In this document: positions 13,974-26,022 of the stretch, piece by piece | Layout of the letters: each line of letters opens with the position of its first letter | Position numbering within the stretch: position 1 is the stretch's first letter | Origin: a virus | Direction: 5' to 3' (one strand) | IMG/VR virus record: IMGVR_UViG_3300047548_000895 | Span: 1 to 27,353 of that record | Length of the DNA stretch: 27,353 nucleotides | Position numbers and translations under genes: made by a program | The notes under the pieces: model-generated | The model's input: the letters and a program-made list of their open reading frames with translations, nothing else | What the model was told of the DNA's origin: nothing | Databases searched by the model: none

Positions 13974-14188
13974 CAAGACACCGCGACCTTTCCGCCAGGA
14001 ATGGCGTCGAGCAGCCGCATCATCAGCTCTTTTGGCATGACGCAGACCTCGCCAATCGTGAACTTGGTGGGGTCAGACATGCCTTTCAGGCGTTTGATGG
14101 CTTTGGACTTGTCGGCATAAACACATCCCTCAATCGGCATCTGGTCGTGCCGGTACAGGACAGCCCAGCGAGTGCAAGCGCCGTTCAT
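13973..14188 (-). CDS. Small unknown protein between ParB-like and terminase genes
   Basis: This 71-aa protein starts MNGACTRWAVLYRHDQMPIEG. The start is fixed by an ATGA overlap with the upstream ParB-like gene; the frame stays open further upstream but only as a shadow of that gene. It contains a basic segment (ADKSKAIKRLKGM near residue 25) and ends MMRLLDAIPGGKVAVS. I do not recognise it. It overlaps the small terminase start by one base, so the three genes are read as one unit. Confidence 0.65.
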   Translation of the reverse strand: MNGACTRWAVLYRHDQMPIEGCVYADKSKAIKRLKGMSDPTKFTIGEVCVMPKELMMRLLDAIPGGKVAVS

Positions 14189-14856
14189 GCCGCCACCTTC
14201 TTGGCCTTCTTGGCGGCGTCCTTGCGGTCGGTGGTCCCGCCCTCGTAGGCCACGTTGTAGGGCGGGTCGGTCAGCCACATGTCAACCATTTGGCCAGCGC
14301 ACAGGCGCTCCAGGTCGGCAATGCTGGTGCTGTCGCCGCACAACAGGCGGTGGTTGCCCATCACCCAAACGTCGCCCTGGACGGTGACCGGGTTGGCCGG
14401 TACCGGGGGCGCATCGTCGGGGTCGGTCAGGCCGTCGGTCTTTTCGGCCTCGGCCAGCAGGCCTTTGATCTCGTCCTCACCGAAGCCGGTCAGCTCCAGG
14501 TCGAAACCGGCCTCCTTCAAGTCGGCCAGCTCAAGCGCGAGCATTTCCTCGTCCCACCCGGCATTGAGGGCCAGCTTGTTGTCCGCGATGACGTAGGCAC
14601 GGCGCTGGGCCTCGGTCAGACCTGCCAAGGTGATCGTGGGCACTTCGGACAGTCCCAGTTTTTGGGAGGCCATGACCCTGCCGTGCCCCGCAATGATTCC
14701 GCCTTCCTCGTCCACCAGCACGGGGTTGGTGAATCCGAATTCTCGGATGCTTGCCGCGATTTGCGCGACCTGTTCCGGGTTGTGCGTGCGGCTGTTGCGC
14801 ACGTAGGGAATAAGGCCGTCAGTTGGCCGATAGGTGATTTTCAGTTGGTTGCTCAC
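14185..14856 (-). CDS. ParB/Srx-type N-terminal domain protein with truncated methyltransferase tail
   Basis: This 223-aa protein has a GTG start with GAGGA upstream. Residues 5-90 form a ParB/Srx-like domain (VRNSRTHNPEQVAQIAASI, then FTNPVLVDEEGGIIAGHGR at 42-60). Residues 158-200 match the front of a phage ParB-DNA methyltransferase fusion (GDVWVMGNHRLLCGDS, then DMWLTDPPYNVAYEG with the catalytic DPPY at 197-200). The rest of a methyltransferase, about 200 residues with the SAM-binding FxGxG part, is missing; a short Lys- and Ala-rich tail replaces it. It is probably not an active methyltransferase but may bind DNA near the packaging genes. Confidence 0.78.
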   Translation of the reverse strand: MSNQLKITYRPTDGLIPYVRNSRTHNPEQVAQIAASIREFGFTNPVLVDEEGGIIAGHGRVMASQKLGLSEVPTITLAGLTEAQRRAYVIADNKLALNAGWDEEMLALELADLKEAGFDLELTGFGEDEIKGLLAEAEKTDGLTDPDDAPPVPANPVTVQGDVWVMGNHRLLCGDSTSIADLERLCAGQMVDMWLTDPPYNVAYEGGTTDRKDAAKKAKKVAA

Positions 14857-14972: not shown

Positions 14973-15001
14973 ATGAAATGCTACCCGCCGGGTATTACAA
15001 T
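14973..15001 (+). promoter_or_regulatory. Early promoter with CTACC-N5-GGTAT operator (site A)
   Basis: The palindrome CTACC-CGCCG-GGTAT sits at 14981-14995 and is followed at once by a -10 box TACAAT (14996-15001). A -35-like ATGAAA (14973-14978) lies 17 nt upstream, so the operator fills the spacer. It precedes the operon of small genes that begins 30 nt downstream. The 174-nt gap between the divergent genes holds this site, the 14865 inverted repeat and a small CAGGG-AAAA-CCCTG hairpin at 14959-14972. Confidence 0.65.
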
Positions 15002-15030
15002 GAGGCCTTCAACAACCCACGGAGAAAACC

Positions 15031-15204
15031 ATGAAGAACTCACACGTCAAGACACCGCGCACTTTGAACGAGTGCCATTTCACTCCCGGGTACCAAAGCC
15101 TGACCAACCGTGAGCCGCTTTGGGAGCGCATCGCGGGTTATGCGCTGGCCCTGGCCATTGGCACCGGCATGGCTGCACTGCTTGTTGCATGGTGGTCGTC
15201 ATGA
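15031..15204 (+). CDS. Small single-pass membrane protein
   Basis: This 57-aa protein is preceded by GGAGA 6 nt before its ATG. The N-terminal 32 residues are soluble (MKNSHVKTPRTLNECHFTPG), followed by a hydrophobic segment IAGYALALAIGTGMAALLVA at about 35-54 ending WWSS. It is the first gene of the operon driven by promoter site A and overlaps the next gene by 4 nt. Function is unknown; a small inner-membrane protein made early is likely. Confidence 0.65.
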   Translation: MKNSHVKTPRTLNECHFTPGYQSLTNREPLWERIAGYALALAIGTGMAALLVAWWSS

Positions 15205-15533
15205 GCGCCGCGCACACACCAGGGCCGTGGTACGTATCGAAAGAATTTGATGGTACGTCCATCAAAGCCGGAATGTTTCACGTCACGCACACCATTAAAG
15301 CGTGCGGCTTTCACGAACCAGAGGTGGACAAAGCAGTCACCCAAGCCAACGCCCGCCTGATCGCCGCAGCGCCTGATTTGCTGGAGGCGCTGAAAAAGAT
15401 GGTGGACATCGCCTCAGATAGCCGTGGCGTTGCTGGCTACCACCTGAATGGCGAGATTGCTGAATGGGATGAGTTCCCCGAATGGCAAGCCGCTTGTGCC
15501 GCCATCGCCAAGGCGACTGGGGGTGCTGTATGA
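15201..15533 (+). CDS. Small phage accessory protein (HTPGPW...ANARLIAAAP type)
   Basis: This 110-aa protein starts MSAAHTPGPWYVSKEFDG, set by an ATGA overlap with the upstream gene. The HTPGPW start and the central QANARLIAAAPDLLEALKKM are very common together in small phage proteins of unknown role. The 3' half shares DNA with the next gene: the 19-bp stretch coding for LLEALKK is identical in both (15379-15397 and 15681-15699), and both end with an AAIAKAT segment. This points to module shuffling among the small genes. Confidence 0.75.
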   Translation: MSAAHTPGPWYVSKEFDGTSIKAGMFHVTHTIKACGFHEPEVDKAVTQANARLIAAAPDLLEALKKMVDIASDSRGVAGYHLNGEIAEWDEFPEWQAACAAIAKATGGAV

Positions 15534-15814
15534 GCACACAATCCGAAGCACTGCGACTGGCAGACGCATTAGAAGACTCGCTTGAAGACTACTCAGGGTC
15601 ATCTCTGCCGCGTCGATGCCAAAACATTGCCGACGAAGCCGCCGCCGAACTGCGCCGACTGCACGATTTGAATGCCGAGCTGCTGGAGGCGCTGAAAAAA
15701 TACGACGAGGCGTTTAACGAACTTGGTGATGGCATGGAAAGCCGCCACCGTATGCGCTTGGCCGTTATCAAAGCTCGCGCCGCCATCGCAAAAGCAACAA
15801 GAGAAACGAAATGA
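15530..15814 (+). CDS. Small helical phage accessory protein
   Basis: This 94-aa protein starts MSTQSEALRLADALEDSLE, coupled by an ATGA overlap. It is almost wholly helical and highly charged (ADEAAAELRRLHDLNAELLE, then LLEALKKYDEAFNELGD). The AEALRLADxLE start and AAAELRRLHxxNxELLEAL middle are typical of small phage proteins of unknown function. Its tail resembles that of the gene before it. No enzymatic motif is present. Confidence 0.75.
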   Translation: MSTQSEALRLADALEDSLEDYSGSSLPRRCQNIADEAAAELRRLHDLNAELLEALKKYDEAFNELGDGMESRHRMRLAVIKARAAIAKATRETK

Positions 15815-16206
15815 ACCACATCGAAGCAACTCAATACATCAAAGCAACATTGGCAGCTTTTGGACCCGGCGATGCAATGGGCATGACGATAGATACGTGG
15901 GCAAAGCTCCACGAAGCGATGAGCGTGTTGATCGGCCAGCCTGCACAGAAGCCGCAGCAGGAGCCTGTGGCGTGGGATGGTGACTGTGTTCTTGGTCACT
16001 GTGGCTCACCTGCGGGTTGTGAGGCATCTAATTGCTGTCGTGCTGACTACACCACCCCACCACAACGCAAGCCGCTGACGGATGAGCAGATCGACGCCGC
16101 TATCAAAGCATGGTTTGAAAATGACATCGTTGCTGGCCGACAGCCATTCGCAAAGCGGATGCGTGCGGCCTTTGCAGCCGCCCACGGCATTAAGGGGGGC
16201 GCATGA
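15811..16206 (+). CDS. Small Cys-rich modular phage protein
   Basis: This 131-aa protein starts MNHIEATQYIKATLAAFGPGD and is coupled by ATGA. It has three parts: a helical N-terminus, a QPAQKPQQEPVAW linker at about 43-55, a short Cys cluster (DCVLGHCGSPAGCEASNCC near 58-76), and a helical C-terminus beginning PLTDEQIDAAIKAW. The MNHI(E/D)A start and the QPAQ linker recur in the last gene of the window, so the two are mosaic relatives. Role unknown; the Cys cluster could bind zinc. Confidence 0.72.
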   Translation: MNHIEATQYIKATLAAFGPGDAMGMTIDTWAKLHEAMSVLIGQPAQKPQQEPVAWDGDCVLGHCGSPAGCEASNCCRADYTTPPQRKPLTDEQIDAAIKAWFENDIVAGRQPFAKRMRAAFAAAHGIKGGA

Positions 16207-16385
16207 GCACCGTAATCGTCGACGGAGTGAAGTGGTCGCCGTTCTTGGTCGAGTTTGAAACTCAGGAGGGCACGTTTTACTTTGAGCTGTTTGCGCTCGA
16301 TTGGACTCACGCGCTGGATCGGCTGGAAGAACTGAAGGCCACAGCCAAGATTATTGGCGAAAAAAGAGGGAGGGTTGAAGCATGA
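16203..16385 (+). CDS. Small unknown phage protein
   Basis: This 60-aa protein starts MSTVIVDGVKWSPFLVEFET and is coupled by ATGA overlaps at both ends. The first half looks like beta strands (VEFETQEGTFYFELFAL); the second is an amphipathic helix (HALDRLEELKATAKIIGE). I do not recognise it. It is probably a real gene because the ATGA chain continues through it. Confidence 0.65.
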   Translation: MSTVIVDGVKWSPFLVEFETQEGTFYFELFALDWTHALDRLEELKATAKIIGEKRGRVEA

Positions 16386-16609
16386 GCCGCGTACCGCTGA
16401 AAGACATGCAGGCCTTGCTTGAGCGGGCTACCTACAACGATGACTACGGCGTTCACGGCTCGACCTTCATACATTGCCGCATTTGCGACCACGAAAGCGG
16501 TGCTGGTGTCTTGTACCGACCAAACTGGCACGCCTACGATTGCCCGGTCCCGCGCCTCAAGCGGAAGTACAGCGAACGAGGCGCGGCCAAGAAAGGCGGT
16601 GCAGCATGA
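16382..16609 (+). CDS. Small zinc-finger-like phage protein
   Basis: This 75-aa protein starts MSRVPLKDMQALLERATY, coupled by ATGA. It contains FIHCRICDHESGAG (Cys32, Cys35) and later HAYDCPVPRLKRKY, so a zinc-binding CxxC...H...C arrangement is possible. The C-terminus is basic. Length and composition resemble other small accessory proteins of early phage operons. Function unknown. Confidence 0.68.
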   Translation: MSRVPLKDMQALLERATYNDDYGVHGSTFIHCRICDHESGAGVLYRPNWHAYDCPVPRLKRKYSERGAAKKGGAA

Positions 16610-16827
16610 GATATCCGATGCCTCCAGTTACCAAGGAAGACCTCACGCTTTATATAAGACACGTGACCCTGCGCGACTACTTCGCCGCCAATGCGACCGA
16701 TGAGGACGTTAAGGCACAGGCCGAACGGCTCCGTGAAGTCAGCCCCATGCGAATCCTTCCAGAGGGCTGGCGATCAACTTGCCGCTACATGCATGCCGAC
16801 GCCATGCTGAAAGAGAGGGACGCATGA
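16606..16827 (+). CDS. Small unknown phage protein ending in a shared ADAMLKxRDA tail
   Basis: This 73-aa protein starts MRYPMPPVTKEDLTLYIRHV, fixed by ATGA overlap. The body is helical (RDYFAANATDEDVKAQAERL). The last residues, ADAMLKERDA, are encoded by a 33-bp stretch including the stop and next-start ATGA that recurs at 20586-20618 with one mismatch, at the end of an otherwise unrelated gene. Function unknown. Confidence 0.7.
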   Translation: MRYPMPPVTKEDLTLYIRHVTLRDYFAANATDEDVKAQAERLREVSPMRILPEGWRSTCRYMHADAMLKERDA

Positions 16828-16979
16828 ACACACGTCGCCGCCCACCGCCAAGCGAAGAAATCCTGCGCCAGTGGCTTCAGCACGACCCGTTTGAGCGTGC
16901 AAGCACTGACCTGATCCGCCAAATCCAAAAGCTGGCACGCCAGCCCCAACAACCCCAGGCCGAGCCTGCACCATTCTGA
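16824..16979 (+). CDS. Very small basic, Pro-rich phage protein
   Basis: This 51-aa protein starts MNTRRRPPPSEEILRQWLQ, coupled by ATGA to the gene before it. It is one helix (EEILRQWLQHDPFERAST, then DLIRQIQKLARQ) followed by a Gln/Pro-rich tail. The following gene begins 8 nt after its stop. I do not recognise it; the intact coupling favours a real gene. Confidence 0.6.
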   Translation: MNTRRRPPPSEEILRQWLQHDPFERASTDLIRQIQKLARQPQQPQAEPAPF

Positions 16980-16987
16980 GGACAACA

Positions 16988-17269
16988 ATGATCGACACAT
17001 ATTTCGACCGCGCTGACCGCGCCACCGGCTACCACTTGATGAAGCGCACCCCAATGCAAAACATCACCGAAGACCCGCGTTATTGGGGTGGCCAGCTTTA
17101 CGCCACCGTCACCGCCCGCATGGTGGCCGAAGCCCGCGCCATGGTGCGCTTTACGGTGGCGGCTGCCGCCCGGGACCATCAGCGCGAGATGTACTGCGGC
17201 ATCCCATTAGGAAGCAAGCACAGCGTGTTTGACGGCGCAGGCCGTCGCAAAACAAAGGTGCAGGCATAA
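16988..17269 (+). CDS. Small unknown phage protein, last gene of the small-gene operon
   Basis: This 93-aa protein starts MIDTYFDRADRATGYHLMK with AGGA 5 nt before the ATG. It has a helical middle rich in Ala and Arg (VTARMVAEARAMVRFTVAAA) and a basic C-terminus (GAGRRKTKVQA). It is the last gene before the bidirectional terminator, which lies 30 nt downstream. Function unknown. Confidence 0.68.
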   Translation: MIDTYFDRADRATGYHLMKRTPMQNITEDPRYWGGQLYATVTARMVAEARAMVRFTVAAAARDHQREMYCGIPLGSKHSVFDGAGRRKTKVQA

Positions 17270-17299
17270 CCAAAACAGAGCTGACAGGCGACGAATCGT

Positions 17300-17333
17300 A
17301 AAAAAGGCTCCCTACCGTGTGGGGGCCTTTTTT
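17300..17333. terminator. Bidirectional rho-independent terminator between convergent operons
   Basis: A stem of AAAAAAGGC-CCC against GGGG-GCCTTTTTT with a short TACCGTGT loop has a T-run in both readings. It ends the rightward small-gene operon and also the leftward repressor operon. The stop codon of the 66-aa leftward gene lies inside the hairpin. Confidence 0.85.
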
Positions 17334-17512
17334 GTTTTACGGCTTGGCGTGTCACCTGGCGCTTGGCACTTCTCCACGGACAACGACGCCAACACATCAA
17401 GCACAGCCTGACGGTGGCGTTTTTGCACGGCCATCAGCAGGGCCGCAAAGCGGTATTCATCGGTGACCGGCTCATCGACTCGCAGCCGCCTTTTTTCTTG
17501 CCTTCTGCTCAC
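17312..17512 (-). CDS. Small basic protein downstream of the repressor
   Basis: This 66-aa protein starts at a GTG with GAGG six nt upstream and overlaps the end of the repressor gene by 41 nt, so the two are probably co-translated. It is basic at both ends (MSRRQEKRRLRVDEP and SRKTKKAPTR) with a helix between (FAALLMAVQKRHRQAVLDVL). Its last codons run into the terminator stem, which weakens the case. I do not recognise it. Confidence 0.5.
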   Translation of the reverse strand: MSRRQEKRRLRVDEPVTDEYRFAALLMAVQKRHRQAVLDVLASLSVEKCQAPGDTPSRKTKKAPTR

Positions 17513-17912
17513 GGTCCCCCTCGGGCCTTTCTGTCGTGCTTGCTCCGATCATCCTTTCCCCCATGTAGCGCAGCAAGACCGACTGCGCCTCAAGCGGCGA
17601 TTCTCGGAACAGTTTTAGGGCCAGCTCCAGGTATTCACGCTCTGCGCGTGTGCCTGGTGCCGGGCTTCCCAAGTGGTCGTGATCCATCCAGCCGTGCGGC
17701 AGCTTGAAAGCCTGTTCCATCCGGCGGCAGGTTTCTGGCCCCAGATGCTTTCGACTGTTGTTCACATGCGACAAATACCGGGGGCTGACGCCCGTGAATT
17801 CGCCAAAGCGATTTAACAGGCCCCGTTCAGGCTCCCCGCTATCCAACTCCCTGGTGCGGAACTGCTGCATCAGGATCGTGTAGTTGCGCATCCGAATCTC
17901 GTTCACATCCAT
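17472..17912 (-). CDS. Phage repressor-like HTH protein without peptidase domain
   Basis: This 146-aa protein is best started at MDVNEIRMRNYTILMQQF (GGAG 9 nt upstream); an open extension upstream has no support. Residues 32-66 form a Cro/C1-type helix-turn-helix: LLNRFGEFTGVSPRYLSHVNN, then KHLGPETCRRME and LPHGWMD. The second half is a short helical region (EREYLELALKLF) and a basic tail. It has no S24/LexA-like self-cleavage domain, unlike the classical 200+ aa CI repressors. The divergent Cro-like gene and the operator between them support the repressor role. Confidence 0.78.
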   Translation of the reverse strand: MDVNEIRMRNYTILMQQFRTRELDSGEPERGLLNRFGEFTGVSPRYLSHVNNSRKHLGPETCRRMEQAFKLPHGWMDHDHLGSPAPGTRAEREYLELALKLFRESPLEAQSVLLRYMGERMIGASTTERPEGDREQKARKKAAASR

Positions 17913-18052
17913 GCCGAAAGGCTCCCCGCTGGTGACTCGCAGTAGCCGCAAGGTAGCACACTGACCGCCCTGGAAGTAGCGGGGCAAATGTAAAACGCGC
18001 CGACACTATGAGACAACTGAACAGGGATGTGCGCTGACGAAGGGCGCTCTAC

Positions 18053-18106
18053 TTACGGAAAACGGCAGCGGTTTTCCTTGTAACGCTTGCCGAGAACGGC
18101 TACCAT
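18053..18106 (+). promoter_or_regulatory. Promoter of the Cro-like gene with palindromic operator over the -35 box
   Basis: An inverted repeat GGAAAAC-N7-GTTTTCC (18057-18077) with outer TTAC...GTAA bases runs into a -35 box TTGTAA (18078-18083). Seventeen nt later is a -10 box TACCAT (18101-18106), which also carries a CTACC half-site. A protein bound to the repeat would block the promoter. The divergent gap 17913-18165 also holds three (A/G)GTAGC half-sites at 17941, 17952 and 17975 near the repressor start. Confidence 0.65.
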
Positions 18107-18165
18107 ACGGGGCGCAAACATTCCCTTGCGATAGCACGATTGAAGAACATAGAAAGGCCCGCCAA

Positions 18166-18501
18166 ATGGCACGTAAACCACTGAACCTGCGAGAGTATTG
18201 GGACGCCGTGGGCACCCAGAACATGGAAAAGATCATCACCGACCTGGGTAGCTCATTGAAGTATTTTCGGATGTTGAGGTACGGAATTAAGAAGCCCGGC
18301 GGTCCCCAGGCCCTGCGCATTATTGAGTCCGCTCGTCGGCACACGGCCCCGTATGAGCCTGACTTGGAGCTGCTGCTGGCGGGCGTGCCCCGGGCCGGTC
18401 ACAACCCAGCCAAACGGATCACCCCGGCTACCGAGTTTGTCCGCGCACGCAATCGGCTGTTGCAGAAAAGCAAAATCCCGACTGAAACAGTGGGTGATTG
18501 A
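18166..18501 (+). CDS. Cro-like/YdaS-type DNA-binding regulator
   Basis: This 111-aa protein has AGAAAGG 8 nt before its ATG. Residues about 8-55 (LREYWDAVGTQNMEKIITDL, then LKYFRMLRYG, then PQALRIIESARR) look like a small helix-turn-helix of the Cro or YdaS type. The basic C-terminus (TEFVRARNRLLQKSK) could extend DNA contact. It is the first rightward gene divergent from the repressor, the classical position of Cro. The exact family is uncertain. Confidence 0.65.
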   Translation: MARKPLNLREYWDAVGTQNMEKIITDLGSSLKYFRMLRYGIKKPGGPQALRIIESARRHTAPYEPDLELLLAGVPRAGHNPAKRITPATEFVRARNRLLQKSKIPTETVGD

Positions 18502-18529
18502 TTGAATACCCGGCAGGTAGTCTTAGAAT
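18502..18529 (+). promoter_or_regulatory. Early promoter with ATACC-N5-GGTAG operator (site D)
   Basis: A -35 box TTGAAT (18502-18507) and a -10 box TAGAAT (18524-18529) are spaced by 16 nt. The palindrome ATACC-CGGCA-GGTAG (18506-18520) lies between them. Transcription would start near 18536, exactly at the first hairpin of the structured RNA. Confidence 0.65.
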
Positions 18530-18535
18530 CACCAC

Positions 18536-18639
18536 ATCGCTTGGCAGCGATTCGTAGTAAGCCCTAGACGGGACTCTGCCGGTACTGCCCGGTCTGCCAA
18601 CACCTCTTTCGGGGTGAGAGTCCCGCCTAGGGCTTTTTT
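18536..18639 (+). ncRNA. Structured leader RNA ending in a terminator, C4-antisense-like
   Basis: The transcript would begin with a perfect hairpin ATCGCT-TGGC-AGCGAT (18536-18551). Then a long stem of two 9-bp blocks around one mismatch (18559-18577 with 18617-18635) encloses two short hairpins: CCGG-TACTGC-CCGG (18579-18592) and CACCTC-TTTC-GGGGTG (18601-18616). The stem ends in a run of six T. This three-way junction between a promoter and a downstream phage operon resembles the C4 antisense RNA of P1/P7-type phages, which controls the downstream gene. The terminator structure is certain; the C4 identity is a hypothesis from memory of shape and context. Confidence 0.6.
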
Positions 18640-18658
18640 GTTTGGAAGGCGGCAACAA

Positions 18659-19522
18659 ATGCCAACCCGATACCTCAAGCCCGGAGTGCGAGACAGCGAG
18701 GCGATTGATTCGCTTTCGCCTCTTGCCGAAGTCCTGTTCTACCGATTGCTTGTGACCGTTGATGACTTTGGGCGCTATGACGGTCGCGCAGCAATGATCA
18801 AAGCCCACTGTTTCCCGATCAAAGACATGCCGGTGGCCAAGTGCGCCGCGCTGCTGCAGGAGCTGCACGACCGTGGCCTGGTTGTGCTTTACACGGTGGA
18901 CGACAAGCCCTACGTGCAGATGTGCAAATGGGACAACGTGCCCCGCGCAAAGGAAAGCAAACATCCTGCACCTGATGTCGATGCCATGCACTTGCATACA
19001 TATGCAAGCAAGCCCCGCGCAGTTCTACCTTTAACCGAAACCGTAACCGGAACAGAAACAGAGACCGTAAACCAAAACAAAGACACGGCACCGCGCAAGC
19101 GCAGTGCTAGTACTCCGAAGATTTCAAAGCCGATTGATGTTGACGAACAAGTCTGGTCGGACTTCCTGACGATCCGAAAGGCAAAGGGCGCACCCCTGAC
19201 GGCAACGGCGCTTGCAGGGATCGAGCGCGAATCCGCCAAAGCCGGGATGACACTGCAGGCCGCGCTTGAGACATGCTGCGCCCGTGGATGGCAGGGGTTT
19301 AAAGCCGAGTGGATTCAGCGCGAAGTCACGTCCGCAACGGCTACCCGCCAGGGAGCCGTGGCCATGCCCATGACGTTCAAGGAGCGCGACGAGGCGCTGG
19401 CCCGCAAACGCTGGGAGGAAATGACCGGGCAAAAGTGGCCGGACGAACAGGACGCCAGAACCATCGACATCACACCAACCGGAACGGAGCTGTTTTATGA
19501 GCCTACCCCTGAAAGCAATTGA
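18659..19522 (+). CDS. Phage replication initiator (O/DnaT-like)
   Basis: This 287-aa protein starts MPTRYLKPGVRDSEAIDSLS, with GGAAGG about 10 nt before the ATG. Residues 1-95 look like a winged-helix domain seen in phage replication proteins (LAEVLFYRLLVTVDDFGRYD, then KPYVQMCKWDN). The C-terminal part (about 165-225) has VWSDFLTIRKAKGAPLTATA and CCARGWQGFKAEW, a pattern common in DnaT-like and O-like primosomal proteins. The next gene is a P-like loader, so the pair is the replication module. It lies behind the terminator-bearing leader RNA. Confidence 0.75.
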   Translation: MPTRYLKPGVRDSEAIDSLSPLAEVLFYRLLVTVDDFGRYDGRAAMIKAHCFPIKDMPVAKCAALLQELHDRGLVVLYTVDDKPYVQMCKWDNVPRAKESKHPAPDVDAMHLHTYASKPRAVLPLTETVTGTETETVNQNKDTAPRKRSASTPKISKPIDVDEQVWSDFLTIRKAKGAPLTATALAGIERESAKAGMTLQAALETCCARGWQGFKAEWIQREVTSATATRQGAVAMPMTFKERDEALARKRWEEMTGQKWPDEQDARTIDITPTGTELFYEPTPESN

Positions 19523-19964
19523 CCGCCTTTTCCAGAGGCTGGGCGCAACTTATGGCGCGGCTTGGACACGGCAATGGGCCGATGTTCCGATAGCTGATGT
19601 CAAGAGCGCTTGGTCCCATGAGCTTTCTGGCTTCGCCAACAACCTTGACGCAATTGCCTGGGCATTGGAGAACCTGCCTCCCCGCGCCCCCAACGTAATC
19701 GAGTTTAAGCAGCTGTGCCGCAATGCCCCGGCACCAGAAATGCCAAAGCTGCCGGAGCCAAAGGCAGACCCAGAGCGCCTGAAAGCCGAGCTGGCCAAGC
19801 TGGGCGAAATGCGGGCCAAGTTATCGACCGGCCATACCGTCGATCACCGGGCATGGGCACGCCGAATCATGGGCCGCTATGAGGGCGGCGAAAAGGTAAA
19901 CCCCACCACGCTGCGCTTTGCCCGCGAGGCGCTTCATCTTGACATTTTGAAAGGCAAAGAATGA
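19497..19964 (+). CDS. Replication protein P-like helicase loader
   Basis: This 155-aa protein starts MSLPLKAIDRLFQRLGATYG and overlaps the initiator gene by 26 nt. The N-terminus (AAWTRQWADVPIADVKSAWS, then LENLPPRAPNVIEFKQLCR) matches the lambda P-like family pattern in phages of Proteobacteria: a helical domain ending with a P(x)FxxLCR-type motif. It would load the host replicative helicase at the phage origin. It is shorter than lambda P, as is common. Confidence 0.75.
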   Translation: MSLPLKAIDRLFQRLGATYGAAWTRQWADVPIADVKSAWSHELSGFANNLDAIAWALENLPPRAPNVIEFKQLCRNAPAPEMPKLPEPKADPERLKAELAKLGEMRAKLSTGHTVDHRAWARRIMGRYEGGEKVNPTTLRFAREALHLDILKGKE

Positions 19965-20290
19965 CCGCCACCATCGCGCAGCAGCGCAAACAAACAGGCC
20001 AGCAGCTCGCACTGCTGAAAACAGGGCCGGAGTGGACCCAGCAGGCCATGGACTACCTGCGCATGTTCGTGTGTGACCGCATGGACGACGGTTGCGAGCT
20101 GTTCACGTTTGAGCAGTTCCGCATCTACGCCGAGCAGGCCGGTCTGCCTGTCCCCCTGAGCATCAATGCTTGGGGCGCCTTCACCCGCACTGCCGCCGCA
20201 AGCGGTTTGTGCTTTCCCACCGACACGTACATCAAGGCCACCAGGCCCGAGTCACACGCCCGCGCCATTCGGGTCTGGAAAATCTTATGA
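19961..20290 (+). CDS. Small unknown phage protein of the replication region
   Basis: This 109-aa protein starts MTATIAQQRKQTGQQLALLK, coupled to the loader gene by ATGA. The middle (FTFEQFRIYAEQAGLPVPLS) and the end (TYIKATRPESHARAIRVWK) are typical of small phage proteins found near lambda P-like genes, usually unnamed. The helix and basic ending suggest nucleic acid contact, but that is inference. Confidence 0.68.
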   Translation: MTATIAQQRKQTGQQLALLKTGPEWTQQAMDYLRMFVCDRMDDGCELFTFEQFRIYAEQAGLPVPLSINAWGAFTRTAAASGLCFPTDTYIKATRPESHARAIRVWKIL

Positions 20291-20409
20291 AAGCCCTTGC
20301 AAACCTCATGCTGTTTTTTGCCGCCACCGCTGCGGTGCTGTTGTTCACCGGCCTGGTGCTCAAGGTCTACTGGACGGTCTTCATGATCGGGTGGGGGATG
20401 CTGCCATGA
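20287..20409 (+). CDS. 40-aa hydrophobic membrane peptide
   Basis: This protein starts MKALANLMLFFAATAAVLLF, coupled by ATGA. Almost the whole sequence (about residues 5-36) is hydrophobic with one Lys near 26, so it is one or two membrane passes. The end IGWGMLP is encoded by DNA that recurs at 20678-20694 in the 27-aa gene. Function unknown; ATGA coupling at both ends favours a real gene. Confidence 0.55.
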   Translation: MKALANLMLFFAATAAVLLFTGLVLKVYWTVFMIGWGMLP

Positions 20410-20618
20410 ACTGGCTTTTACTTACCCTGCAGCTGATCGCAATGATCGGTCTCTATTTTTCCGTGCTGTACGGATACCGCCGCGCACGACGCGACTTTTT
20501 CGCGGCCATGGCCATGCAATCGTTGTTTGGTCGGCAAGACGTGAATGGCAAGCCGATGGAATATGCAAACACGGCCTACAAAATGGCCGACGCCATGCTG
20601 AAAGCGAGGGACGCATGA
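20406..20618 (+). CDS. Small membrane-anchored protein with shared ADAMLKxRDA tail
   Basis: This 70-aa protein starts MNWLLLTLQLIAMIGLYFSV (single membrane helix at residues 3-23), followed by a basic stretch YGYRRARRDFF and a soluble tail. The last residues ADAMLKARDA are encoded by a 33-bp module that is also found at 16795-16827, one mismatch apart. Coupled by ATGA at both ends. Function unknown. Confidence 0.62.
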   Translation: MNWLLLTLQLIAMIGLYFSVLYGYRRARRDFFAAMAMQSLFGRQDVNGKPMEYANTAYKMADAMLKARDA

Positions 20619-20698
20619 GCGAAGTTCGCCCCGCATTCCAAGGTGGCCTCATGCTCGCAGGCTGGACAAACAATCACATCGGCTGGGGGATGCTTTGA
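20615..20698 (+). CDS. 27-aa minigene
   Basis: Its ATG overlaps the stop of the gene before it (ATGA), and its own stop overlaps the next start (TTGA). The 27-aa product is MSEVRPAFQGGLMLAGWTNN followed by HIGWGML. Its end resembles that of the 40-aa membrane peptide, including a CTGGAC-N10-ATCGG spacing in the DNA, so it may be a remnant of a duplicated gene. It may simply keep ribosomes moving along the chain. Confidence 0.4.
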   Translation: MSEVRPAFQGGLMLAGWTNNHIGWGML

Positions 20699-20910
20699 AA
20701 TGCCAAGCCTGCCAGAAATCAAAAGAACGCCCACACAGCGGGCTGTACCAATTTCAGTGCCTGGAGTGCTGCACGCGCCTGGTGCTGTCGGCCTACCCCG
20801 ACAAGCGACAGGCTGGGGCCATGCTTGCCGCTATCGAGCGATTCCAGGGCAGTCCTGGCCGGGCGCAAGTGTTGGAGTCCGTCGCCCGGAGCCTTGGGAA
20901 ACACCCTTGA
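20695..20910 (+). CDS. Small zinc-ribbon-like protein (TTG start)
   Basis: This 71-aa protein starts at a TTG overlapping the preceding stop (TTGA), with a GGGGGA ribosome site just upstream. Residues MKCQACQKSK and FQCLECCTRLV give two CxxC pairs (Cys3, Cys6, Cys22, Cys25), a zinc-ribbon arrangement. The rest is helical (AMLAAIERFQGSPGRAQVLE). Function unknown; similar zinc-ribbon proteins occur in phage early regions. Confidence 0.6.
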   Translation: MKCQACQKSKERPHSGLYQFQCLECCTRLVLSAYPDKRQAGAMLAAIERFQGSPGRAQVLESVARSLGKHP

Positions 20911-20954
20911 GCTACGACGAAGTTGCGTTTGCAGTACGAAAGGAATTGCTGTGA
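20907..20954 (+). CDS. 15-aa coupling minigene
   Basis: This frame runs from a TTG (TTGA overlap with the preceding stop) to a TGA that overlaps the GTG start of the methyltransferase-like gene. The product would be MSYDEVAFAVRKELL. It carries the AAAGGA ribosome site of the next gene. It may be a real micropeptide or only a translational bridge. Confidence 0.35.
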   Translation: MSYDEVAFAVRKELL

Positions 20955-21568
20955 AAGTTTTGATCGCTTGCGAATACTCGGGCCGTGTCCGTGACGCATT
21001 TATTCGGGCTGGCCATGAGGCTATGAGCTGCGACCTGTTGCCAACCGATGTGCCCGGCCCGCACTACCAAGGTGATGTGTTCGACATCATCAACAACGGC
21101 TGGGACTTGATGGTCGCACACCCGCCATGCACCTACCTGTCGGTCAGCGGGATGCACTGGACCACGCGAGGACTGCGCGACCCGCAACTGACAGAGGAGG
21201 CTTTGGACTTTGTGCGCCTGCTGATGGCCGCGCCCATCGAACGGATCGCCATCGAAAACCCGATCAGCGTGATTTCCAGCCGGATCAGGAAGCCCGACCA
21301 AATCATCACGCCCTACCAGTTTGGCCACGACGCCAGTAAGAAAACCTGCCTTTGGCTTAAGAACCTGCCGCCGCTGCGCCAGACCGAGTACGTCGAGCCA
21401 CGAATGGTCAACGGCAAACCGCGCTGGGGAAACCAGACCGACAGCGGCCAGAACAAGCTGGCCCCGTCTGCTGATCGGTGGAAGGTGCGAAGCGAGACAT
21501 ACAGCGGCATTGCGTCCGCAATGGCTACCCAGTGGGGCGCTTTGCAGCCTATGCGGGAGGCGGCATGA
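20951..21568 (+). CDS. Orphan C5-cytosine methyltransferase-like protein
   Basis: This 205-aa protein starts MKVLIACEYSGRVRDAF at a GTG, with AAAGGA upstream and a GTGA overlap with the 15-aa frame. The first residues match the SAM-binding motif I of C5-methyltransferases (ACEYSGRVRDAFIRAGH). HPPCTYLS at 57-64 contains the catalytic PPC loop, and IAIENP at 99-104 matches motif VI. There is no typical target recognition domain or C-terminal FG motif, and the protein is about 100 residues shorter than usual enzymes. No restriction enzyme is next to it. The activity is plausible but unproven for this short form. Confidence 0.72.
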   Translation: MKVLIACEYSGRVRDAFIRAGHEAMSCDLLPTDVPGPHYQGDVFDIINNGWDLMVAHPPCTYLSVSGMHWTTRGLRDPQLTEEALDFVRLLMAAPIERIAIENPISVISSRIRKPDQIITPYQFGHDASKKTCLWLKNLPPLRQTEYVEPRMVNGKPRWGNQTDSGQNKLAPSADRWKVRSETYSGIASAMATQWGALQPMREAA

Positions 21569-21813
21569 ACCAGACGCGTATTGGCTCGCTGATTGAGGCG
21601 AGCATCAACGTTCTGATCGGCTACGCCATCAACTTCTGCGCGAACCTTCTGATCCTGCCCTTGATCGGGTTTCAGATCAGCGTGGGACAAAACCTGTTCA
21701 TTGGGTTGCTCTACACCGTCATCAGCGTGGCCCGCAGCTATGCAATCCGGCGCTGGTTCAATGCCAAGCTGCACCGCGCAGCGCAGGCCCTGGCCGCAAA
21801 GGTTGCAGCATGA
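21565..21813 (+). CDS. Small two-helix membrane protein
   Basis: This 82-aa protein starts MNQTRIGSLIEASINVLIGY, coupled by ATGA. Two hydrophobic stretches (about 12-36 and 43-58) and a basic C-terminus (RSYAIRRWFNAKLHRAA) fit a known small phage membrane-protein family of unknown function, for which I recall the name DUF7220. It lies between the methyltransferase-like and NinB genes. Confidence 0.72.
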   Translation: MNQTRIGSLIEASINVLIGYAINFCANLLILPLIGFQISVGQNLFIGLLYTVISVARSYAIRRWFNAKLHRAAQALAAKVAA

Positions 21814-22232
21814 GCGAGCGCCGAGTCTTCATCTTGGCGCACCCACAGGCCCGCGCAAACGCAATCCACGCCGTGCAGACCGCGCCTGATGGCCTGTGCG
21901 TGACGATCCGCGACGTGAACCGCACGCTCGACCAGAACGCGGCTCAATGGCCGATCTTGGAAGCATTCAGCGATCAGCTGCTGTGGCCGGTCAATGGCCA
22001 GATGGTCAAGATGACCGCCGAAGAATGGAAAGATGTCCTGACTGCGGCCTTTCAGCGCGAGACTGCCCGCCTGGCCATGGGCCTCGATGGTGGCGTGGTG
22101 ATGCTTGGCCAACGCACCAGCAAGTTCGGGAAAAAGAAGTTCAGCGAGTGGCTGGAGTTTCTTCACAGTGTTGCGGCCCTGCGGGGTGTTGTTGTTTACC
22201 CCATCGAGGCCCGCCATGCAGTCGAACACTGA
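21810..22232 (+). CDS. ninB: NinB (Orf) recombination protein
   Basis: This 140-aa protein starts MSERRVFILAHPQARANAIH, coupled by ATGA. The end matches NinB: LGLDGG-type loop (LAMGLDGGVVMLGQRTSKFGK), then FSEWLEFLHSVAA, the usual motif, and a short acidic/basic tail. NinB/Orf binds single-stranded DNA and helps load the annealing recombinase, replacing host RecFOR. NinG follows, as in lambda-like ninR regions. Confidence 0.9.
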   Translation: MSERRVFILAHPQARANAIHAVQTAPDGLCVTIRDVNRTLDQNAAQWPILEAFSDQLLWPVNGQMVKMTAEEWKDVLTAAFQRETARLAMGLDGGVVMLGQRTSKFGKKKFSEWLEFLHSVAALRGVVVYPIEARHAVEH

Positions 22233-22797
22233 ACCAAAGCCAAAGACCGCTAAGTGCAAGGTTTGCGAGGGCACCTACCAACGCCTGCGGCCCATGCAGA
22301 AAGTGTGCAGCCCGGTCTGTGCCATGACTCACACCCGTGAGCTGGTGAAGAAGAAGGCCGAGCGCGAAGCCAAAGCCGAGCGCAAGGCCGACAAGGCGAA
22401 GCTGGACGCCATGCGCACCAAGCCCCAGCTGACCAAGCTGGCGCAGCAAGCCTTCAATGCTTTTATTCGCGCCCGGGACGCGGGAAAGCCCTGCATCAGC
22501 TGCGGCACGACCCTGAGCAACGAACCCAACACCTACGACGCGGGCCACTACCGCAGCGTGGGCAGCGCCCCCCACATGCGCTTTGTTGAGGACAACTGCC
22601 ACGGGCAATGCAAGCACTGCAACAACTACCTGGCCGGGAACCATGTGGCGTACCGCCTTGGATTGGTCGCTCGCATCGGCCTGCGCAACGTGGAGCTGAT
22701 CGAGGCCGACACCATCCTGCGCAAATACAGCCACGAAGGTCTGATCGAAATTGCCCGGCATTACAGGGCCGAGGCCAAGCGAATCCGGGGCAAGTAG
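22216..22797 (+). CDS. ninG: NinG (Rap-like) recombination protein
   Basis: This 193-aa protein starts MQSNTEPKPKTAKCKVCEGT and overlaps NinB by 17 nt. It carries an N-terminal zinc site (CKVC 14-17 and CSPVC 31-35), a long basic helix (about 42-70), and the NinG core: KPCISCG at 91-97, AGHYRS (His111), CKHCNNYLAGNH with Cys132, Cys135 and His143. NinG/Rap is a Holliday-junction nuclease in lambda. It completes the recombination set with NinB, RecT and the exonuclease. Confidence 0.9.
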   Translation: MQSNTEPKPKTAKCKVCEGTYQRLRPMQKVCSPVCAMTHTRELVKKKAEREAKAERKADKAKLDAMRTKPQLTKLAQQAFNAFIRARDAGKPCISCGTTLSNEPNTYDAGHYRSVGSAPHMRFVEDNCHGQCKHCNNYLAGNHVAYRLGLVARIGLRNVELIEADTILRKYSHEGLIEIARHYRAEAKRIRGK

Positions 22798-22826
22798 CGA
22801 AAAAGCGACAAGAGCTGTCCCGCTAG

Positions 22827-22855
22827 TTGCAAAGCTACCGGCGGGGTAGTAAGAT
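22827..22855 (+). promoter_or_regulatory. Early promoter with CTACC-N5-GGTAG operator (site B)
   Basis: A -35 box TTGCAA (22827-22832) and a -10 box TAAGAT (22850-22855) are spaced by 17 nt. The palindrome CTACC-GGCGG-GGTAG (22835-22849) fills the spacer and ends directly at the -10 box. It precedes the recT-exonuclease operon. Confidence 0.7.
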
Positions 22856-22927
22856 CACGCACATGCACCAGGAAACGCGGGGTCAGTCAGATACCCGTCC
22901 AGGCGCATCAACAGGAGAAAACCACCA

Positions 22928-23734
22928 ATGACAAACGCACTCGCCACACTCACCACACGACTGGCCGAACGCCTCGACATGGGCGACGGCTCGGGCCTGA
23001 TCGAAACCCTAAAGGCCACAGCCTTCAAAGGCCAAGTCAGTGACGCGCAAATGACCGCGCTGATGGTCGTGGCCAACCAGTACGGCCTGAACCCTTGGAC
23101 GAAGGAAATCTACGCCTTCCCAGACAAGAACAACGGCATCGTGCCCGTGGTCGGCGTTGACGGCTGGGCACGGATCATCAACAACCACCCGCAGTTTGAC
23201 GGCATGGACTTTGACCAGACCGACCAAGCCTGCACCTGCATCATCTACCGCAAGGACCGCAGCCACCCGGTCAAGGTCACCGAGTACATGGACGAATGCC
23301 GCCGAGGCACTGGCCCATGGCAAACGCACCCAAAGCGGATGCTGCGCCACAAGGCGATGATTCAGGGCGCTCGCTTGGCCTTCGGGTATGGCGGCATCTT
23401 TGACCAAGACGAGGCCGAGCGCATTGTTGAAGGCACCGTGATTGATGGCAACACGGGCGAGGTGATTCAGAAGCCACGCACGACCATGCCACGGGCTAGA
23501 CCCGAGGCAGTCGTTATCGATGACGTTCCCGCGCAGGCCACGTCCGCGCAGCCCGCAGCGACTGCCGCCGCCAAGCCGGTCACAGCAGGCCAGCTCAAGT
23601 GGATCGAGAACAAGTGCAAGTCGCTGGGCATCGAGGTCAGCGTGCCTCTTGAGCACCTGGGAATTGAATCGCTTGACGCCATGACGCCAGAGCAGTTCGA
23701 CCAGATCAAGAACCACCTGATGACGCAGGGCTGA
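22928..23734 (+). CDS. bet: RecT/Bet-family single-strand annealing recombinase
   Basis: The protein has 268 aa; a ribosome site (AGGAG) lies 8 nt before the ATG. The core matches phage Bet: VSDAQMTALMVVANQYGLNP, KEIYAFPDKNNGIVPVVGVD, GWARIINNHPQFDGM, then MLRHKAMIQGARLAFGYGG. After about residue 200 comes an Ala- and Pro-rich linker and a small helical C-terminal domain (QLKWIENKCKSLGIE). It anneals homologous single strands with the partner exonuclease encoded 4 nt downstream. Confidence 0.93.
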   Translation: MTNALATLTTRLAERLDMGDGSGLIETLKATAFKGQVSDAQMTALMVVANQYGLNPWTKEIYAFPDKNNGIVPVVGVDGWARIINNHPQFDGMDFDQTDQACTCIIYRKDRSHPVKVTEYMDECRRGTGPWQTHPKRMLRHKAMIQGARLAFGYGGIFDQDEAERIVEGTVIDGNTGEVIQKPRTTMPRARPEAVVIDDVPAQATSAQPAATAAAKPVTAGQLKWIENKCKSLGIEVSVPLEHLGIESLDAMTPEQFDQIKNHLMTQG

Positions 23735-23738
23735 TTCG

Positions 23739-24305
23739 ATGCTGACGTTTGACGAAGCCGCCCATAAGTATTTCTGGAACGGCAAGCCCGTTCCGGGCGT
23801 GACCAGCATCCTGCAGGCGCTGCACAGCTTCGACGGTGTGCCCGAAAGCATCCTTGTCCCTGCACAGGATCGCGGCACTGCCGTGCACCTGTGCTGCGAA
23901 TACCTTGACAAAGGCATCCTAGACGAGGACAGCATCGACCCGGCCATCGCGGGCTACGTTGACGCCTGGCGTCTGTTCACCGCCGAAATGCGACCCGAAT
24001 GGACGCACATTGAGGCGCAGTGCTTTCACCCGGTCATGCGCTACGCGGGGACGGTGGACCGGGTAGGCTTGCTCAACGGCAAGCGGTACGTTCTGGACAT
24101 CAAGACCAGCGTGGCATCGCACCCCGTCTGGGGTTTGCAGACCGCTGCCTACGCCCACGCGCTGGGAGAAACGACCGCCAGCCGCGCCACGGTGCAGCTG
24201 CGCAAGGACGGCACCTACCGGCTGTTGGAATGGTCGGACGCCGCCGACTGGCCAACGTTTGCCTCGCTCATCACGATCAACAACTTTCTTCAAAAACACG
24301 GGTAG
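23739..24305 (+). CDS. PD-(D/E)XK exonuclease (partner of RecT)
   Basis: This 188-aa protein starts MLTFDEAAHKYFWNGKPVPG four nt after the RecT stop. It has the motifs of a RecB/Cas4-like PD-(D/E)XK nuclease: VPGVTSIL, RGTAVH (His50), AGTVDRVG with Asp107, VLDIKTS with Asp120 and Lys122, and QTAAYAHAL with Gln134. It would resect double-stranded ends and hand the 3' strand to RecT. It is shorter than lambda Exo, which is normal for this subtype. Confidence 0.9.
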   Translation: MLTFDEAAHKYFWNGKPVPGVTSILQALHSFDGVPESILVPAQDRGTAVHLCCEYLDKGILDEDSIDPAIAGYVDAWRLFTAEMRPEWTHIEAQCFHPVMRYAGTVDRVGLLNGKRYVLDIKTSVASHPVWGLQTAAYAHALGETTASRATVQLRKDGTYRLLEWSDAADWPTFASLITINNFLQKHG

Positions 24306-24342
24306 AAACCCTACCCGCCCGGTAGCAAAACTACCATATAAT
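24301..24342 (+). promoter_or_regulatory. Early promoter with phased array of GGTAG/CTACC half-sites (site C)
   Basis: GGTAG (24301), CTACC (24311), GGTAG (24321) and CTACC (24331) alternate with exactly 10-bp steps, then a perfect consensus -10 box TATAAT lies at 24337-24342. The central pair is the same CTACC-N5-GGTAG operator as at the three other promoters. No clear -35 box is seen apart from the operator bases. It drives the gene that begins 30 nt downstream. Confidence 0.7.
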
Positions 24343-25148: not shown

Positions 25149-25156
25149 ACAGTTAC

Positions 25157-25284
25157 GGGCGGCACGCCGCAGGGATTGCACCTGTGGGTCTGTGAAGGTG
25201 GAACGCCGACAGACCCTAACGCGAAGGCGATAGCAGGAACCACCCAGCGCCGGTCTGAGAAGGACGCGCCGCCCACCATTTTTT
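25157..25284. other. Structured intergenic region, possible non-coding RNA
   Basis: The 148-nt gap between the coiled-coil and FtsK-gamma genes holds no credible gene. GGGCGGC (25157-25163) pairs with GCCGCCC (25268-25274), closing the region. Inside, GGGTCTGT (25186-25193) pairs perfectly with ACAGACCC (25209-25216). A run of six T follows at 25279-25284. It could be a structured leader RNA or an intercistronic regulatory element. Confidence 0.45.
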
Positions 25285-25296
25285 GAAAGCAACACC

Positions 25297-26022
25297 ATGC
25301 AAGACCAAGCAACAAAACGCCCCCCGTTCAAGGTGAACGGGGCGGCAACCATCAAGCACCTGAACGTCCGCAAGGAAGGCCCCGAGGACGACAAGATCAT
25401 TGCCGTGGACATCAAGCTGGAAATCAAGCATGTGGACCGCCGCTTGTGCGCCTACTTCGATGACGCCTTGGAGGCTTTCTTGTGGCGGGGCAACACGGAC
25501 GCCCTGATCGCCCGCAACATGTACTTGCAGCCGGTCGCGTTTTCAAACCTGATCACGGGCGCGAGCTTCACCATCGAAAGCAAGACATTCGTCGGCTGTG
25601 AGGTGAAGAAGTTTGCGATGGAACCCCGCGACGGTGGCGTGATGACCCTCACCTGCGCCGTTTCTGTGTACCCCTTGGCATCCGAGGTGTCTGGCCTTGC
25701 CAAGCTGGTGCAGGACGACGCCCATGTGTCCATCGAAGGCCCGCCCGATCTGTTCGCCTCATCCCCTGACACTCAGGCCGATAAAGGCAGCGCCACAAAA
25801 GCCGAAGTCATCAAGGCCGCATCAAAGCTGCCCGACAGCCTGGTGGAGCTTGCCATCTCTCTGGTGAAGGCGCCAGGAGGGAAAGCCAGCATCAGCTATA
25901 TCCAGCGCAGCATGAAGATTGGCTACAACCAAGCCGCCCGCGTCATGGAAATCTTGGAGCAGAACGGCATCGTCGGCCCCATGCAGCCAAACGGCCAGCG
26001 CAAAGTTATTGAAACCGCATAA
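25297..26022 (+). CDS. Phage protein with C-terminal FtsK-gamma winged-helix domain
   Basis: This 241-aa protein starts MQDQATKRPPFKVNGAATIK. Residues 1-155 are a beta-rich domain I do not recognise (IIAVDIKLEIKHVDRRLCAY, then MTLTCAVSVYPLASEV). Residues 179-239 match the FtsK gamma winged helix closely: LVELAISLVKAPGGKASISY, then QRSMKIGYNQAARVMEIL, then QNGIVGP. In FtsK this domain reads the KOPS sequence and activates XerCD. No ATPase motor is present, so this is a stand-alone reader fused to a phage domain. It sits between recombination genes and SSB, 9 nt before SSB. Confidence 0.8.
   Translation: MQDQATKRPPFKVNGAATIKHLNVRKEGPEDDKIIAVDIKLEIKHVDRRLCAYFDDALEAFLWRGNTDALIARNMYLQPVAFSNLITGASFTIESKTFVGCEVKKFAMEPRDGGVMTLTCAVSVYPLASEVSGLAKLVQDDAHVSIEGPPDLFASSPDTQADKGSATKAEVIKAASKLPDSLVELAISLVKAPGGKASISYIQRSMKIGYNQAARVMEILEQNGIVGPMQPNGQRKVIETA

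Follow-up and report, generated by a model that had tools for sequence, protein, structure and literature searches.

A repeated palindrome at the early promoters

We analysed virus record IMGVR_UViG_3300047548_000895, whose entire 27,353 bases are called the window here, with regard to a palindrome, CTACC-N5-GGTAG, that recurs ahead of separate early operons. Leftward structural genes occupy the window left of ~14.9 kb and rightward early genes lie right of it. The early region comprises an accessory operon, a leftward cI, a cro-like gene, an O-like replication gene, and genes for NinG, RecT, an exonuclease and SSB. The 41,638-base record IMGVR_UViG_3300043399_000579 represents the same phage, with 18,955 bases shared at 100% identity, and because it carries a 127-base terminal repeat, the genome is a circle of 41,511 bases. 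This complete record encodes an integrase, so the phage is temperate. The palindrome copies, with their promoters and the two candidate regulator genes, are listed below (aa, amino acids; HTH, helix-turn-helix).

14981-14995: predicted operator copy CTACC-CGCCG-GGTAT (CTACCCGCCGGGTAT), one mismatch, ahead of the rightward operon 15031-17269; promoter ATGAAA (14973-14978), 17-base spacer, TACAAT (14996-15001), palindrome in the spacer
17472-17912, minus strand: 146-aa CI-like repressor, HTH plus helical C-terminus, candidate binder
17942-17956, minus strand: weaker copy CTACC-TTGCG-GCTAC, two mismatches, in the -10 region of the presumed cI promoter
18100-18114: weaker copy CTACC-ATACG-GGGCG, two mismatches, on the -10 box (TACCAT, 18101-18106) of the cro-like promoter
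18166-18501, plus strand: 111-aa HTH protein, Cro-like and divergent to cI; candidate binder in place of or besides the CI-like repressor
18506-18520: predicted operator copy ATACC-CGGCA-GGTAG (ATACCCGGCAGGTAG), one mismatch, ahead of the replication (O-like) operon; promoter TTGAAT (18502), 16-base spacer, TAGAAT (18524-18529)
19341-19355: possible intragenic copy CTACC-CGCCA-GGGAG in the O-like gene, one mismatch, role uncertain
22835-22849: predicted operator copy CTACC-GGCGG-GGTAG, exact, ahead of recT/exo; promoter TTGCAA (22827-22832), 17-base spacer filled by the palindrome, TAAGAT (22850-22855)
24301-24335: four alternating half-sites with a central exact palindrome at 24311-24325, ahead of a 258-aa gene; -10 box TATAAT (24337-24342)

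The four copies named in the initial annotation (14981, 18506, 22835 and 24311) are present, two exact and two with one mismatch, and its -10 boxes TACAAT, TAGAAT, TAAGAT and TATAAT were all found where claimed. It had described the palindrome as touching the -10 box in two cases, and indeed those at 14981 and 22835 end exactly where the box begins. Its statement that the middle five nucleotides are always G or C was wrong, since 18506 has CGGCA and relatives often have A or T there (e.g. TTTTT, AATGA). It also overlooked the two-mismatch copies on the promoters of cI and cro and the half-site array at 24301-24335, which keeps an exact register of 10 base pairs (bp; GGTAG 24301, CTACC 24311, GGTAG 24321, CTACC 24331).

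Copies with up to two mismatches numbered 18 in the window compared with 5.2 ± 2.2 in shuffled sequences, and none of 100 shuffles reached this count. Four of the six matches with up to one mismatch fell in early non-coding DNA, which as counted here makes up 5.8% of the window (binomial P = 1.6e-4); the motif is thus concentrated at early promoters and is not as common in coding sequence, the possibility that the initial annotation had set against its own proposal. Besides 19341, the second one-mismatch match inside coding sequence, at 6410, is probably due to chance. When all 1024 half-sites were combined with spacers of 0 to 10, CTACC-N5-GGTAG ranked first de novo among these 11,264 candidate palindromes in the early non-coding DNA of the window. 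In the complete record, a third exact copy with 7-bp arms (GGCTACC-AAGTA-GGTAGCC) was found at position 37453, where the lysis genes and the integrase gene converge with their 3' ends. As this is no promoter location, the copy was set aside as chance or another element.

The geometry of the sites points to initiation as the step affected. The 3' arm adjoins the -10 hexamer in the window and in three related loci (L204, L230 and L241), and a -10-like hexamer with at least 5/6 matches was found near the palindrome in 12 of 112 site orientations against a background of 1.25%, mostly directly abutting. Half-site centres lie 10 bp apart, which is one helical turn and the separation expected for a dimer of HTH proteins. 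Because the palindromes abut the -10 box and the half-sites are one turn apart, steric exclusion of RNA polymerase is indicated. We considered it quite improbable that the sites act like stoperators, where protein bound in or between genes would block elongation rather than initiation: the strong sites coincide with promoters, overlapping them at the -10 box, and unlike the asymmetric, mostly oriented stoperators of L5 (PMC6550527) the motif is symmetric. The pattern of asymmetric, oriented sites mostly outside promoters was not found in the window. What could speak for such use are the possible intragenic copies at 19341 and at 9832 of the related locus L201, and the many sites in another relative, L233; at the place matching 19341, L201 has CTACC-CCAAA-GGTCG, a likeness for which coding conservation may account.

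Conservation of the sites with the repressor module

Relatives of the 146-aa repressor were retrieved for comparison, and motif presence was found to track the repressor/Cro module across phages. Ten CI-family relatives held 47 matches with up to one mismatch (9 of them exact), compared with a mean of 3.2 and a maximum of 14 for 99 anagram or spacer variants of the motif; without L233 and L243 the count was 25 against 2.6. The motif again ranked first of 11,264, untied, when the search was confined to the cI-cro gaps of two distant relatives without the window: L109, whose CI is 42% identical to that of the window, and G003/L115 (45%). L233 and L235 each carry 13 sites in 16.4 kb where 0.5 would be expected, with two exact and one one-mismatch site in the cI-cro gap and the others outside it. 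The repressor control region bears copies ranging from exact to two mismatches in L233, L109 and G003.

Conservation upstream of the same operons, which the initial annotation had made a test of its proposal, was found for 14981, 18506 and 22835 in L201, for 14981 in L204 and for a recT site in G003. L201, whose CI and Cro-like proteins are 77% and 73% identical to those of the window, has equivalents of 14981, 18506, 18100 and 22835 at matching places; in ungapped comparison their arms are identical at 34/40 positions (85%) and the flanks at 74/192 (39%). The 14981 equivalents stand right of parB (CTACC-CCCGT-GGTAT in L201, CTACC-GTGCG-GGTAT-cataat in L204). The 18506 equivalent in L201, CTACC-CCATG-GGTCG, is followed by the same leader as in the window, and that of 18100 reads CTACC-ATACG-GGTCA. 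The 22835 equivalent, TTACC-CGGCG-GGTAT-gtataat, lies after ninG, where L201 has a gene different from recT. In G003, CTCCC-AATGA-GGTAG stands 54 bp upstream of recT, and a further site occupies the spacer of a leftward promoter-like sequence, TTGACG-N17-TAGCAT.

Chance palindromes and composition bias are hardly credible as a source of this pattern, given the first rank de novo in the cI-cro gaps of relatives, the 47 matches against 3.2, and arms conserved at otherwise diverged promoters. Over the whole 41.5-kb genome the motif does rank only 106th, and codon-driven palindromes such as GGCCA stand higher; codon bias swamps such a ranking in most records, which is why non-coding DNA and anagram controls were chosen. 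Binding by a host regulator is very improbable, as phages that have the module show enrichment of the motif in their cI-cro gaps and early regions, and loci with other CI subclasses do not.

The motif, its positions, its enrichment and conservation, and its linkage to the CI/Cro gene pair are direct observations. On this basis we consider CTACC-N5-GGTAG a dispersed operator of the phage's own immunity module that would cover the promoters of several early operons, with a probability of roughly 0.86. Several results weigh against this interpretation. Within the cI-cro gap of the window itself, the copies have two mismatches and are weaker than the distal ones, and many of the retrieved relatives are fragments. 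The site at 24311 has no equivalent in the relatives compared (G002, G003 and L201); exo and the 258-aa gene abut in G002 and G003, and these genes are absent in L201. L202 has few sites although its CI is 75% identical, and L203, a 4.7-kb fragment with a CI 65% identical, has no site with up to one mismatch. Many CI-family loci, those with the CI helix REAYMSHI (e.g. L207-L222), are devoid of the motif; this group gave 9 matches in 15 loci, no more than the better controls did (rank 9 of 100), and another CI subclass had zero matches in its loci. The link between motif and repressor therefore holds for part of the CI family only.

Under the dispersed-operator interpretation, the predicted operator recurs at the promoters of at least four early operons, and less well matching versions lie on those of cI and cro. 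An HTH protein would recognise both CTACC half-sites as a dimer, sitting between -35 and -10 at 14981, 18506 and 22835 and just upstream of -10 at 24311, and would keep RNA polymerase off these promoters. A single repressor concentration could then silence the replication, recombination and accessory early operons together in the lysogen. The proposal that one protein acts on several early operons is supported by the enrichment and conservation, and the control pair, repressor and/or Cro-like protein, can probably silence all site-bearing gene blocks at once.

Candidate binding proteins

We infer protein binding, dimeric reading and steric repression, with CI, probably sharing the sites with the Cro-like protein, as the binder. 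The 146-aa protein matches phrog_5736 (E=7e-8) and has no Pfam match at E<=0.001. Its recognition helix comprises residues 44-51, PRYLSHVN. The AlphaFold model, with a predicted local distance difference test (pLDDT) score of 80, consists of the HTH plus helices only, and the S24 self-cleaving peptidase domain is absent. Release would therefore have to be achieved differently, for instance by Cro or an antirepressor. Its profile match in the PDB is the phage Rep 5d50 (E=2.5e-7, HTH region), with a weak fold match. The Cro-like family is encoded divergently to cI at the same place in most of these relatives' loci. With tblastn, neither the CI nor the Cro-like protein of the window found a match in 50,697 phage records.

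The recognition helices of both proteins correlate with the motif, each with exceptions. The Cro-like helix of the window and L201 (KYFRMLRYG) is a different one, and in CI the residues RYLSHV are retained, as they are in L109 and G003. L223 and L243 have an 'A'-type CI helix (EAYISHI, KAFLSHI), yet the motif is present, and their Cro-like helices (YFKHIAH, YFEHIAH) match those of other motif-bearing phages. Motif-free loci have other Cro-like helices, such as RGFEMVRIG. Since each helix correlates and each has exceptions, sharing of the sites by CI and the Cro-like protein is favoured: the binder is predicted to be one or the other, and most likely both. The initial annotation had named the 146-aa repressor as the likeliest binder. 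It stands as a candidate but is inseparable by sequence from the Cro-like protein.

The helices of L223, L243 and the motif-free loci are also what could favour the Cro-like protein as the main reader of the distal sites, reducing early-operon expression at a later stage of the lytic cycle. We regard this as rather unlikely, because the Cro-like helix of the window and L201 differs while the CI residues RYLSHV are common to L109 and G003, and because lysogeny requires the early promoters to be silenced by a repressor. In lambdoid switches operators are shared by CI and Cro, and by this analogy CI is favoured as the keeper of lysogeny under shared binding. Residue R45 of the recognition helix was suggestive as a specificity switch, and L223 and L243 contradict it. 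A ParB-like protein was ruled out as the binder, as it was not found in most motif-bearing loci. In purple sulfur bacteria (loci L117, L118 and L119), the gene of a CI relative is preceded by repeated TAGCA-N3-TGCTA palindromes, which may represent a different operator specificity within the CI family.

Related systems and neighbouring elements

Lambda has divergent cI and cro genes, HTH proteins, and palindromic operators OL and OR over its promoters; the contrast drawn initially with a single right operator of lambda was thus overstated. The window phage shares with lambdoid phages the conserved divergent pair of CI-like and Cro-like HTH proteins and palindromic predicted operators on promoters, and differs in having predicted operators at four further early promoters and a repressor without a peptidase domain. 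A parallel to the dispersed-operator systems described below is the repressor of phiC31, which has conserved inverted repeats. By profile, the closest solved relative is Rep of the Salmonella phage Rep-Ant complex (PDB 5d50) of phage SPC32H; only the HTH aligns, and whereas Salmonella Rep is held by the antirepressor Ant, no antirepressor was identified in the window phage. The HTH of CI from E. coli phages mEp506 and ST2-8624 is ~38% identical over 79 residues to that of the L233 CI; the window CI itself, in contrast, is matchless in the 50,697 records.

The dispersed-operator mode itself is already known from a few other phages. In P1, C1 acts at 22 operators scattered over the genome at separate lytic promoters (PMC8546580), which resembles the window in that one repressor would act through copies of one site at several distinct promoters beyond the immunity region. 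The P1 operators are 17-bp and asymmetric (ATTGCTCTAATAAATTT), while the window motif is symmetric and linked to a divergent cI/cro pair; C1 was compared by description only. Repressors of cluster A mycobacteriophages (L5-type) have many stoperators outside the immunity region that evolve with the repressor (PMC6550527). The many copies beyond the immunity region are shared with the window; the L5 sites are asymmetric and mostly away from promoters, and the strong window sites are symmetric and at promoters. As in dispersed-operator systems, the window has its sites both in the control region of the repressor itself and at several distinct promoters away from the immunity region.

Judged by tblastn with the window proteins, the repressor, its Cro partner and the operator have no representative in the 50,697 phage records. 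There is roughly an even chance that they form a dispersed-operator immunity system that is new, with a repressor/Cro family and a symmetric operator of its own. In such a system operator number would grow from about 4 in some lineages to 13 in others, and promoter-operator cassettes would remain at the borders of modules as the genes that follow are exchanged; L201, which keeps the 22835 operator with a different gene in the recT position, is an example. Control by dispersed operators is understood in few phages so far, and this family would let repressor, Cro-like partner and operator set be read jointly from sequence over many lineages. The growth of operator number, the drift of immunity specificity and the fixing of exchangeable-module borders by operators could be studied directly, and the early operons of otherwise unannotated phages would become predictable.

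Between operator 18506 and the O gene, on the plus strand at 18558-18641, lies a leader hairpin (z = -3.15) with a terminator-like T-run at its end. L201 has the same leader, and L202 has at that place an unrelated sequence with a long stem over the ribosome-binding site; the element may act by attenuation or give rise to a small RNA that controls replication. An Rfam scan of the window gave no credible match, including for the gene-free 148 bases at 25149-25296, which have GGGCGGC...GCCGCCC ends followed by a T-run and may be a structured RNA or terminator. The adjacent 25297-26022 encodes a 241-aa phage protein with a C-terminal FtsK gamma (DNA-reading) domain; over the protein's first 157 residues the L201 version shows 94% identity, the highest of the early proteins compared. 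At 14185-14856 a ParB-N protein is encoded whose frame ends soon after a methyltransferase-like DPPY motif, and which may be truncated. A 33-base near-identical repeat (97%; 16795-16827 and 20586-20618) stands at the ends of two small early genes.

A scan of viral contigs for ATGCTACC-N5-GGTAGCAT returned 74 contigs, none with a CI of this family, and these were rejected as unrelated. Most of them have one recurrent hairpin just ahead of the ribosome-binding site: phage contigs of low G+C content (most of L126-L199) share the perfect hairpin ATGCTACCTACTTGGTAGCAT directly before AGGAGGT, which is unrelated to the operator.

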